A stretch of 64,000 bases of DNA from contig NC_014374.1 in the NCBI RefSeq assembly GCF_000144915.1, forward strand, positions 248,001 through 312,000, written 5' to 3'. This DNA is from Acidilobus saccharovorans 345-15. GTDB taxonomy: Archaea > Thermoproteota > Thermoprotei_A > Sulfolobales > Acidilobaceae. Positions 54,902 to 61,189 of the stretch are shown here, piece by piece (the first letter of the stretch is position 1; every line of letters begins with the position of its first letter). Below the pieces are notes generated by a model. It made no database searches, was not told the origin of the DNA, and saw nothing but the letters and a program-made list of their open reading frames with translations. The position numbers and the translations under genes were made by a program.

Positions 54902-56449
54902 TCAGCTATTCCGAGCCTTCGGTTCCCCCTTTAAATCCCTTGCCCATAAGACCTTCAGGCCCATCCTCTGCATCTCCTGCCCAATCTCTAGGCTCCAGCG
55001 CTTCTTCGGTGTAGCCTCAATTATGATGTCGTGGCCCTCCCTCTTGAGCCTTATCACGAGCGCTCGGAGGAAATTAACCAGGTCCCTGATAACGTCATCA
55101 GGCACGGGCTCGCCGTAGCTGAACTGGGCCGTTGGGTAGGCGCCGCAGATCTCCTCAGGCACAGCGCCAAGATATGGGATGTAGTATACCAGGGAGAGCC
55201 CGTCAGCCTTGGACTGCTGGCACATGCCGCTCCTGCTGAGCAGTGGGGCCAGCCTGACCAGGTTAAAGGGAGGCCTGTAGCGGAGCAGCACCCACGTCCT
55301 TAACCTTATGATCCTTGGGTTCCACGTGCTCTCTATGGAGAACAGCCTGGCCCCGCGGAGGCCGCCCTTGCTGGTCGGCGTGAACGACTCCATGTACCTG
55401 TAGTACTTGCTTATGGCCCTTAGCGCTTCCCGCATCTCCGGGCGATAGTGAGAAACCTCAACTAAGAGCTCCCAGAGCCTCCCCTCCCTTATGCTCTGCT
55501 TAACCCTCTCTATGGACCTCTTTATCGCGTAGAGGTTGTGTATCGCAAGAAGCTTCCTCCTTTGTTCAGGGGGCATCTCAAGCAGGTCCTTTGGCGTGTA
55601 CTTCCTGCACACGGGACATGAACACGGGAAGTACTCCAGCTCCTGAAGCTTTACGGTGCCGTAGTCCGTTATGTACCTGTCGTCCCTCGCGTACAGCATG
55701 TATGAGGCCGAGTCGAAGGTATCAACGCCAAGGGCCACCGCGAAAGGGAACATCAGCGGGTGACCTGCCCCAAAGAGGTGCACGGGCCTCTCGGGCCTGA
55801 GGAACCTCTTGGCAGCGCCTATCATGTCTACAACCACTTTATAGTTGTACTTTTCCATAAAGACGGTGGGGCTCCCTATTCCATACATGGGGTAGGGCAA
55901 GTCCGCTGACTCGCTGGCGCTCTTGGCAACTAGGTCAAGGTACTTGCCTCCCTGTATTGGGAGGACCCATATAGTCTTGGAGGTCTCAAGGTCAAGATAG
56001 GATATAGCTTCCCTGGCGTTGTTCAAAGTGTTTATGACGCTCTGCTCCGCCAGCCTTCTGCTGACGTCGCCCGTGGGATGGTCTAGGATTACGGCGATGT
56101 CGCTCTTTATGTCCTTCTCGAACGATACAACGGTCCTCTGGTCGATGTCTATAGATCCATACTCCAGCATTTGATAGGCTCCTGAGTCGGTCATTATAAC
56201 GCCGTCGAAGCCGAGAATACGGTGAACTCCCATCTCCCTGGCTTTGTCGCCAAACCTCCTGTAAAGCAGGTAGGCGTTAGTTATAACCTGATTAAAGCCC
56301 GCCTCCTTGATCTCCTGTAGGTCAATCTCCTGGCGCAGTGGGTCCACCACTGGAAAAAAAGCTGGCGTCTCAACGCGTCCCGAGGCTGTCTCAAGGACCC
56401 CTATCCTGCCCGCCAGCTCGAAGTCTTTAATCCTAAATACGTTAGGCAT
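54902..56449 (-). CDS. tgtA: tRNA-guanine(15) transglycosylase, archaeosine type, without PUA domain
   Basis: Exchanges G15 in tRNA for preQ0 in archaeosine synthesis. 515 residues: catalytic barrel with IMTDSGAYQ (Asp nucleophile region, about 84-92) and the zinc site CSCPVC followed by a His about 25 residues later. The C1-like helical domain follows, but the chain ends without C2 and PUA modules (full enzymes have about 580 residues). A PUA protein with a C2-like part is encoded nearby at 53702. The start overlaps the SmAP3 stop by one base. Confidence 0.93.
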   Translation of the reverse strand: MPNVFRIKDFELAGRIGVLETASGRVETPAFFPVVDPLRQEIDLQEIKEAGFNQVITNAYLLYRRFGDKAREMGVHRILGFDGVIMTDSGAYQMLEYGSIDIDQRTVVSFEKDIKSDIAVILDHPTGDVSRRLAEQSVINTLNNAREAISYLDLETSKTIWVLPIQGGKYLDLVAKSASESADLPYPMYGIGSPTVFMEKYNYKVVVDMIGAAKRFLRPERPVHLFGAGHPLMFPFAVALGVDTFDSASYMLYARDDRYITDYGTVKLQELEYFPCSCPVCRKYTPKDLLEMPPEQRRKLLAIHNLYAIKRSIERVKQSIREGRLWELLVEVSHYRPEMREALRAISKYYRYMESFTPTSKGGLRGARLFSIESTWNPRIIRLRTWVLLRYRPPFNLVRLAPLLSRSGMCQQSKADGLSLVYYIPYLGAVPEEICGAYPTAQFSYGEPVPDDVIRDLVNFLRALVIRLKREGHDIIIEATPKKRWSLEIGQEMQRMGLKVLWARDLKGEPKARNS

Positions 56450-58377: not shown

Positions 58378-59133
58378 TTAGGTATTTGAACTTTCTTGGC
58401 CGTTAACTTCCCTCTTAAATTCACTTACTTCCCACGGAAATACTATCCATTTACTGACCTGATCAGCATAGTAGTCAGGAACTAGTTTGGTCCAGGGCTT
58501 TATGTAAAGGGCCGCCGTCCTTATCTCAGTTGGCATGTAGAGCGATAGCGCTTGCACGGAGAACTGGAGCGTAAGCCCCGAGTCGCTCACGTCATCAACT
58601 AAAAGGACCTTCTTGTCCTTTATTGGAAGCGTGAGCGGCTGCCTCAGGAAGGGCCTCTCGCCCCTCTGCCCTGGTGATATGTAGAGCTTCACCTCCAGGG
58701 TGCCTATGTCTTCGACCCCCAGCCTATCGGCCAGCAGCCTCCCAGGTATTAGGCCGCCCCTCATTATGCACACTATGGCGTCGGGCCTGAAGCCGGAGCT
58801 GTTTATTTTCTCAGCTATTCTCTCCACGGCTTCGTCTATCTGGCTCCACGTTATCCACTGAAACCTATCGTCCCCTCCATGATTTACCGGGAGCACGACT
58901 ATTTCTTTAGCTTGGCGGCTTCTGTCAAGGAGCCTGCTATCAACGCCGTCCACGAAGACCAGAAACCCAGGCCTGGGGGTCCCGTCCTGGGAGAGCACGG
59001 AGCTAAGTCCCGGATACTGTGACAGCAACTTCTTGAGGACATCGGTCCAGCTGCTCCCCTCAACCAGAACTTCTTGAGCCCCTCCAGCCAGGTCCCTTAG
59101 GGCTGCCAGGAGCTTTACCCTAGTAGTTGGCAA
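58378..59133 (-). CDS. MoaD/ubiquitin-like domain fused to a phosphoribosyltransferase
   Basis: 251 residues with two parts. Residues 1-87 are a MoaD/ThiS/SAMP-type beta-grasp fold ending in VVLPVNHGG, so the C-terminal Gly-Gly of a free sulfur-carrier or ubiquitin-like modifier sits at 86-87 within the chain. Residues from about 93 to the end form a purine-type phosphoribosyltransferase with CIMRGGLIPGRLLADRLG and the PRPP loop VLLVDDVSDSGLTL (176-189). The fused domain order is unusual. The Gly-Gly might be released by a protease or mark a true fusion. TTG start; it follows S17e by 16 nt in the same operon. Confidence 0.82.
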   Translation of the reverse strand: MPTTRVKLLAALRDLAGGAQEVLVEGSSWTDVLKKLLSQYPGLSSVLSQDGTPRPGFLVFVDGVDSRLLDRSRQAKEIVVLPVNHGGDDRFQWITWSQIDEAVERIAEKINSSGFRPDAIVCIMRGGLIPGRLLADRLGVEDIGTLEVKLYISPGQRGERPFLRQPLTLPIKDKKVLLVDDVSDSGLTLQFSVQALSLYMPTEIRTAALYIKPWTKLVPDYYADQVSKWIVFPWEVSEFKREVNGQESSNT

Positions 59134-59149: not shown

Positions 59150-59377
59150 TCAGCTGGTCTTAGTCTCCTCGCTCAGGCGCTTCTGCCTCTCCTTGTTAAT
59201 TCTTACCAGGCTAGTTATGTACCCGGCGACCTGGTTCCTGAGCTTCTTTGAGGACCAATAGGTCAGCTGCGACACCACTTTCTTGTTGTTTTCAAAGCTT
59301 TCAGTGAACAGGTTAGGGTACTTCGCCAGGAGCTCCCTGGCAGTCCTCTTGACCAGCGTCGTCCTAACCTTACCCAT
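59150..59377 (-). CDS. rps17e: Small ribosomal subunit protein S17e
   Basis: 75 residues from the ATG at 59377 (MGKVRTTLVKRTARELL), the normal archaeal length; a longer frame from 59419 adds 14 non-conserved residues. SFENNKKVVSQLTYWSSKKLRNQVAGYITSLV matches the family. GGTGGTAAG before the ATG is a fair Shine-Dalgarno. It is first in an operon with the MoaD-phosphoribosyltransferase fusion and divergent from the thermosome gene. Confidence 0.95.
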   Translation of the reverse strand: MGKVRTTLVKRTARELLAKYPNLFTESFENNKKVVSQLTYWSSKKLRNQVAGYITSLVRINKERQKRLSEETKTS

Positions 59378-59408
59378 CTTACCACCAGGAGCCCCTGTGG
59401 GGTCAGAC

Positions 59409-59458
59409 ATTAAAAGCATTAGGAAGACAACCCTGACGTCTCAGAAAAGCTTTTATAG
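59409..59458. promoter_or_regulatory. Divergent TATA boxes for S17e and thermosome
   Basis: GCTTTTAATG on the minus strand (59409-59418) serves S17e; GCTTTTATAG on the plus strand (59449-59458) serves the thermosome gene, with GGGTGA near 59493 as its Shine-Dalgarno and a leader of about 25 nt. Confidence 0.55.
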
Positions 59459-59506: not shown

Positions 59507-61189
59507 ATGGCCTCACAGCTTGAAACCATGGGAGTTCCAGTGATCATACTCAAGGAGGGCACTCAGAGAACTGCTGGTAGGGAGGCCCTTCGCAACAACA
59601 TGATGGCAGCCATCGCAGTATCGGAGATCCTCAAGACCACGTATGGCCCTAAGGGCATGGACAAGATGCTCGTTGACAGCCTCGGCGACGTAACTATAAC
59701 CAACGACGGGGCCACAATACTTGACAAGATGGACATACAGCACCCCGCCGGCAAGATGCTGGTCCAGGCCGCCAAGGGCCAGGACGAGGAGGCCGGCGAC
59801 GGAACTAAGACCTCAGTAATATTCGCTGGGGAGCTGCTCAGGCAGGCTGAGGACCTCATAGACAGGAACATACACCCAACTATAATAATACAGGGCTACA
59901 AGAGCGCCGTTGACAAGGCCATAGAGGTCCTCAACAGCATAGCCGAACCAGTTTCGATAGACGACACTGACAAGCTAATGAAGGTCGCCATGACCAGCCT
60001 CAACAGCAAGGCTGTTGGCGAGGCCAGGGAGTACTTTGCCAAGATAGTTGTCGACGCCGCTAGGGCTGTAGCTGAGAAGAGGGGTGACAGCTGGTACGTC
60101 GACATAAACAACGTGCAGATAGTCAAGAAGCACGGCGGCGCCCTTACAGACACCCAGCTGGTGAACGGCATAGTAATAGACAAGGAGGTCGTTCACCCCG
60201 ACATGCCAAAGAGGGTCGAGCACGCTAAGATAGCCGTGCTTGACGCCCCGCTTGAGATACAGAAGCCTGAGATAGACATGGAGATTAGCATATCGTCGCC
60301 CGACGCCATAAAGAGGCTGCTCGACAAGCAGGAGAAGATACTGCAGGACAAGGTGGAGAAGATAGCCGCCACCGGCGCCAACGTGGTGATAACCCAGAAG
60401 GGAATTGACGACGTGGCCCAGCACTTCCTGGCGAAGAAGGGGATACTTGCCGTGAGGAGGGTTAAGAGGAGCGACATAGAGAAGATAGCCAGGGCAACAG
60501 GCGCCAAGATAGTGACAAACTTGGACGACCTCAAGCCTGAGGACCTGGGCTACGCTGACCTAGTCGAGGAGAGGAAGGTAGGAGAGGACAAGATGGTCTT
60601 CATAGAGGGCGCCAAGAACCCCAGGAGCGTGACCATACTGATACGCGCCGGCTTTGAGAGGATGGTGGACGAGGCCGAGAGGGCCATACACGACGCGCTG
60701 AGCGCCGTGGCCGACGCTATAATGGACGGCAAGGTGGTTGCAGGCGGAGGCGCCGTGGAGGCCGAAGTCGCTAAGGCCCTGAGGGAGTGGTCGAAGGGCG
60801 TTCCAGGCAAGATGCAGCTAGCCGTTGAGGCCTTCGTGAAGGCGCTTGAGGCGCTGCCACAGACGTTGGCCACCAACGCTGGCTATGATCCGATAGACAT
60901 ACTCATGAAGCTTAGGAGCGCCCACTCCGACCCCTCAAAGAAGTGGTACGGCATAGACCTGAACACTGGCAACATAGTTGACATGTGGGCCAATGGTGTG
61001 GTGGAGCCGCTCAGGGTCAAGGTAAACGCGTACAAGGCTGGAACAGAGGCCGCGACGCTGATACTGAGGATTGACGACATGGTGGCCGCGAAGAAGAGCT
61101 CAACCGGGCCAAGCTCAGGCAAGAAGGAGGGCGGCGAGGAGGAGGAGTCTTCGTCAAGTACTTCAAGCACCTCGAGCTTAAGCGACTGA
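59507..61189 (+). CDS. thsA: Thermosome subunit (group II chaperonin)
   Basis: ATP-driven folding chamber of archaea. 560 residues: [29 protein letters not shown] (about 44-72), AGDGTKTSV (about 95-103), the apical domain in the middle and [13 protein letters not shown] (about 413-425, ATP hydrolysis Asp nearby). The C-terminal tail is Ser/Glu-rich ([17 protein letters not shown]) instead of the GGM-repeat tail of many thermosomes. Only one subunit gene lies here; others may be elsewhere. A strong TATA box precedes it. Confidence 0.97.

Follow-up and report, generated by a model that had tools for sequence, protein, structure and literature searches.

In Acidilobus saccharovorans, a single gene encodes a Urm1-like beta-grasp domain that continues in frame, through an internal Gly-Gly, into a phosphoribosyltransferase (Table 1). 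The gene lies in a 64,000-nucleotide stretch of the chromosome, hereafter the window. We think it probable, at roughly 0.7, that this gene encodes a Urm1 precursor that is cut by a JAMM metalloprotease, in the manner of ubiquitin-ribosomal protein and MoaD-MoaE fusions. We infer the cut, its site, the cutting enzyme and the activities of both products from sequence.

Domains of the fusion protein

A preliminary description of this DNA had placed a MoaD/SAMP-like domain and a phosphoribosyltransferase in one frame, with the N-terminal 87 residues ending in VNHGG. Both points hold, as the 251-residue frame is open, its two halves each match profiles, and HGG occupies residues 85-87. That description had left the modifier type between MoaD/SAMP and Urm1-like. 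For residues 1-87, the best NCBIfam match is Urm1_like (2.9e-10 to 3.8e-9, 40.2 bits), below its cut-off of 70; SAMP1 (4e-5), moaD_arch (6e-4) and Pfam ThiS (0.015) match more weakly, all below their curated cut-offs. By profile comparison the predicted modifier domain is nearest to Urm1, as one part of the earlier assignment had it, and not to MoaD, as the other part had it. Nor is MoaE the fusion partner; the partner is a phosphoribosyltransferase, which sets the protein apart from a MoaD-MoaE molybdopterin synthase.

Table 1. Features of the fusion locus, in window coordinates
Feature	Position	Strand	Remarks
Urm1-phosphoribosyltransferase fusion gene	58378..59133	-	251 aa, TTG start, TAA stop; fusion recurs in 43 family genomes
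Urm1-like beta-grasp domain, residues 1-87, C-terminal VNHGG	58873..59133	-	Profile matches; AlphaFold pLDDT >90 except tail
HGG, residues 85-87; proposed cut behind second glycine	58873..58881	-	43/43 fused family proteins
Variable linker DDRFQ, directly behind GG	58858..58872	-	No in-frame ATG/GTG/TTG from GG to conserved Trp
Purine (HGXPRT-type) phosphoribosyltransferase domain (predicted), residues 93-251	58381..58857	-	Pfam and 4z1o match
PRPP-binding loop VLLVDDVSDSGLTL, residues 176-189	58567..58608	-	Motif matched in 41/43 fused relatives
Ribosomal protein S17e	59150..59419	-	Pfam PF00833 1.4e-17; 16 nt upstream of fusion gene
Thermosome (HSP60-family) subunit, divergent neighbour	59507..61189	+	Sequence read against Sulfolobales urm1 neighbourhood (PMC2948915)

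The second half of the protein matches Pfam Pribosyltran (residues 93-242, 5e-25) and, closest among solved structures, S. solfataricus GpT-2 (4z1o; residues 95-242, 4e-38). The C-terminal domain has both the fold and the PRPP loop of a 6-oxopurine phosphoribosyltransferase, and the loop is intact, as had been claimed. It is from 4z1o only that we infer the predicted substrate class. The S17e gene that had been noted as a neighbour lies upstream on the same strand, and an S17e-like frame precedes the fusion in 41 of the 43 relatives that carry it. Near the S17e and Urm1 genes there is also a tRNA-guanine transglycosylase gene (window positions 54902-56449).

An AlphaFold2 model of the fusion protein, built with 23 sequences, has a mean pLDDT of 91, and both domains lie mostly above 90. 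The HGG at residues 85-87 is the only run of at least three residues with pLDDT below 50, a result that would fit an exposed, flexible cleavage site and equally a plain hinge. By Foldseek, the enzyme half aligns with S. solfataricus 4z1o at 38% identity, with a TM-score of 0.83 normalised by target length, in a comparison whose matches were dominated by that half.

Recurrence of the fusion and conservation of its junction

A search of 60 relatives found the fused frame throughout the family (f1). Altogether, 43 family genomes carry it as an open frame, at ~45-100% identity, and the carriers include Caldisphaera, Aeropyrum, an Acidilobaceae archaeon and Candidatus Tiamatella. On an aRF1 tree the fused family forms one clade (SH-aLRT 97). 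In-frame stops in four relatives (G018, G020, G034 and G035) were set aside, as they lie off the junction and both domains are read without interruption. The source genome is one contig of 1,496,453 bases, 99.96% complete, and the check for an assembly frameshift that had been proposed for this region finds none, the fusion recurring in independent assemblies. This also answers the objection that resequencing might reveal a stop behind the GG. In sister families the two genes are adjacent with a stop between them, and two genomes of one genus (G027 and G069) carry the domains in different frames, as might be expected if the fusion arose from misassembly or misannotation, or from a stop codon read through by chance in recent times. 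Recurrence in 43 genomes, single-contig ones included, within one aRF1 clade refutes that explanation, which we regard as very improbable.

The junction itself is conserved in a particular way. All 43 fused loci keep HGG, and a proline at the third position ahead of its histidine is equally fixed, so the Gly-Gly conservation that had been made a point of the original proposal is present in the homologues examined. Of the 16 codon pairs that can encode Gly-Gly, 13 are in use, so the sameness of HGG is kept by selection at the protein level. The residue right behind it may be S, I, V, E, L, D, K or T, among others, and the first conserved tryptophan of the enzyme follows the GG at a distance of 6-15 residues. 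The family thus has the conserved Gly-Gly at an internal junction, followed by an unconstrained linker, that characterises ubiquitin-type precursors.

If the fusion instead stays whole, then the Urm1-like domain would be a permanent part of the enzyme that serves its regulation, oligomerisation or folding, and the GG only a flexible hinge. Domains are often fused to intact enzymes in the course of evolution, the hinge is flexible in the AlphaFold model, and cleavage has so far been read from sequence. A hinge, however, needs no HGG in 43 of 43 proteins beside a freely changing linker, and the same HGG ends the free Urm1 of sister families and stands in Ubl-Cgi121 fusions. This explanation would also leave the family's genomes without a free Urm1, and we consider it unlikely. 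A related suggestion, that the beta-grasp domain regulates or gives sulfur to the attached enzyme, gains no support from our analysis. At E<=1e-9, the fused gene is the sole Urm1-type match in every genome of the family. With no other Urm1-type gene found there, a tail on which an E1 can act requires cleavage behind the GG.

We also considered whether the enzyme has a separate start inside the frame. In 24 of the 43 fusions, that of the window included, there is no in-frame ATG, GTG or TTG from the GG to the conserved tryptophan; in these genomes the fusion would be practically the only source of the enzyme, and we reject an internal start as a general rule.

Within the order, families f4, f8 and f10 show what may have preceded the fusion. 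Here Urm1 ends in HGG and a stop, and its gene adjoins a separate, orthologous phosphoribosyltransferase gene; the two either abut or share a few bases. The simplest reading is that an ancestral gene pair became one gene in the fused family, and the adjacency suggests that co-expression came before fusion. In G027 (L039) and G069 (L217), Urm1 ends in HGGVFGG or HGGMLGG and the phosphoribosyltransferase lies in another, overlapping frame, an arrangement that looks like a re-split of the fusion.

JAB genes and residues behind HGG

If residues behind the GG must be removed, then a JAMM protease would be expected in every genome whose Urm1 carries them. On this rationale we surveyed 136 genomes of the order in which the Urm1 tail was recognisable, scoring JAB as PF14464. 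A JAB gene is present in 59 of 67 genomes with residues after HGG vs 8 of 69 that end at HGG. When only genomes of at least 95% completeness are counted, 26/26 tailed and 5/44 tail-less ones have it. For the full set less the window's own family, the figures are 21/22 and 8/69. Fisher tests of this association give very small values, but they count related genomes as independent, which these are not. An aRF1 tree of 70 genomes shows seven or more changes in the tail and likewise in JAB, and the two agree in about four of five well-supported independent contrasts with none contrary (sign test p = 0.125, underpowered). Co-change of the two recurs within f2 and within f3. As related genomes are not independent and p is 0.125 on the tree, we take the association, which is not significant after phylogenetic correction, as consistent support and not as proof.

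All 67 tailed Urm1 proteins keep HGG, and none has a proline directly behind it. The tails themselves are of several kinds: the phosphoribosyltransferase (f1), a Cgi121-like domain (f2 genera g56 and g58, and G039 in f5), short tails of 2-14 residues (f3 genus g16, and f5) and a single residue (G151). Cgi121 (PF08617) was matched in the members examined, G140 (L130) of f2 and G039 (L078) of f5. The one tail examined from f2 genus g57 (L128) is similar in length to the Cgi121-like tails and has no Pfam match. At L123-L131 (f2) and L078 (f5), the same Urm1-like domain is fused to a second domain, with HGG kept in all. Ubl-Cgi121 fusions outside the order also keep HGG.

The association has exceptions in both directions. 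JAB accompanies a tail-less Urm1 in four g16 genomes, G155, G156, G163 and G182, so JAB has other uses. A tail without a JAB match is seen in G033 (92% complete) and in seven genomes of 55-89% completeness. JAB is present in 40 of 41 genomes from other classes of the phylum and, being near-universal outside the order (Nitrososphaeria), offers no contrast there. No JAB was found in f6 and f11, yet these families have MoaD-MoaE fusions with PPxxGG junctions (L089, L090 and L091); another protease may act there, or some fusions may stay whole. For the same reason we rejected the MoaD-MoaE fusion as a general driver of the JAB association.

These JAB-less fusions bear on a further explanation, in which another protease cuts the Urm1 fusion or the enzyme is also made from an internal start, JAB serves as a desampylase for conjugates, and the association with tails reflects shared ancestry. 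Its other grounds are the non-significant sign test on the tree and the in-frame ATG, GTG or TTG found behind the GG in 19 of the 43 fusions. Set against these are the 24 that have no such start, and the co-change of tail and JAB within f2 and f3, which is never contrary. We judge this explanation improbable. That JAMM cleaves a polyprotein, as the preliminary description had suggested, draws support from the invariant HGG, the association with JAB and the sister lineages in which HGG is followed by a stop.

The Acidilobus genome encodes a candidate for the protease, a JAB protein of 127 residues (C1:850287-850670) with the JAMM motif HTHPGGLPVPSDKD. Against the NCBIfam desampylase model it scores 32.9 bits, with the cut-off at 130; by these matches it is a predicted Prok-JAB homologue with an intact motif, outside the haloarchaeal desampylase equivalog. 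An E1-like gene is present as well (352 aa, ThiF match 1.3e-64), as are other modifier genes: a MoaD-like protein with six residues behind its GG, a MoaD-MoaE fusion and a free protein ending in TGGG. In the same genome, a MoaD/SAMP-like protein encoded outside the window (L075:1393-1728; G000 C1:748392-748727) ends in PPVLGG followed by LRGRTV. In both fused-family genomes examined (L073:1730-2671 and L082:2209-3136), a small phosphodiesterase-like gene with a VISDSHD/VISDTHD motif adjoins the JAB gene or overlaps with it. In G051, genes for an E1, a MoaD-MoaE fusion and JAB seem to form a single operon (L081:1585-3561), which suggests that JAB processes the MoaD-MoaE fusion there.

Collectively, our data are compatible with a mechanism in which ribosomes would make one chain, Urm1-HGG-linker-phosphoribosyltransferase, and a JAMM metalloprotease, in Acidilobus the 127-residue JAB protein, would cut it behind the second glycine. 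The cut would free a phosphoribosyltransferase whose N-terminus has the usual length and a Urm1 with the GG end that a ThiF/Uba4-type E1 needs for adenylation; once adenylated, Urm1 could act in protein conjugation, sulfur carriage or both. Output of modifier and carrier enzyme would be fixed at 1:1, and the protease would gate activation of the modifier. A broader version is tentative and, in our judgement, falls somewhat short of even odds: that Urm1 of the whole family is an obligate polyprotein with a purine-salvage enzyme, that the JAMM cut gates conjugation and ties Urm1 supply to purine metabolism, and that whether a genome retains its JAMM gene goes along with whether its Urm1 carries residues after the GG.

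Comparison with known systems

In the literature searched, we found no report of a Urm1, MoaD or ubiquitin-like domain fused to a phosphoribosyltransferase. The phosphoribosyltransferase partner of Urm1 thus appears to be undescribed there, and to this extent the claim that no described system has this architecture stands; it does not extend to the design of the fusion, which is known from Ubl-Cgi121, MoaD-MoaE and pro-ubiquitin, nor to the S17e neighbourhood. Makarova and Koonin described the urm1 neighbourhood of Sulfolobales as S17, urm1 and thermosome (PMC2948915), and for Urm1 of S. islandicus (SiRe_1713), which has an HGG end, 783 conjugation sites are reported (PMC12625751). Sulfolobales Urm1 (arCOG00540) shares with the Acidilobus protein a Urm1-like domain ending in HGG and the neighbourhood of S17e and thermosome. 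Its GG end is free, however, and the f11 genomes surveyed have no JAB, whereas in Acidilobus the GG is buried and JAB is present. A Ubl fusion to the KEOPS protein Cgi121 was described in the S17 operon of Thaumarchaeota (PMC2948915). It likewise has an N-terminal Ubl, HGG at the junction and the S17 operon, but its partner differs; Ubl-Cgi121 is also found in f2 and f5 of the window's order. The S. solfataricus HGXPRT (GpT-2, 4z1o/5bqo) has the same fold and PRPP loop as the Acidilobus enzyme but is unfused.

Cleavage behind GG by JAMM and Rpn11 proteases is known both for Ubl precursors and for linear fusions (PMC5654768, PMC6043591, PMC8832034). MoaX of M. tuberculosis, a MoaD-MoaE protein, is cut after Gly82, and the cut is needed for function (PMC4326299); the D. 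radiodurans MoaD-MoaE fusion DR2607 is cut after GG by JAMM (PMC8832034). These proteins resemble the Acidilobus fusion in having a beta-grasp carrier with an internal GG, but MoaE is the reaction partner of MoaD. We know of no Urm1-dependent chemistry of a purine phosphoribosyltransferase. In Caldiarchaeum subterraneum, pro-ubiquitin and SAMP precursors have residues after GG that are removed by Rpn11 or JAMM (PMC5654768, PMC6043591). They too are Ubl proteins with residues behind the GG, although these form a short propeptide and no enzyme. If our proposal is true, then the poorly understood JAMM proteases of archaea gain a specific natural substrate.

Synthesis of ubiquitin as a fusion to ribosomal proteins is usually regarded as eukaryotic. 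In the S27a and L40 fusions, a modifier is joined to an unrelated working protein at a GG junction (PMC11354881), and the Acidilobus chain has this same design. It differs in that its carrier is an enzyme, with S17e only a neighbour in the operon, and in that its cut is a proposed one. If our proposal is true, and taken with the Urm1-Cgi121 fusions and the short pro-tails of neighbouring lineages, synthesis of a precursor with a GG junction would be an old and repeatedly re-invented way of supplying a modifier.
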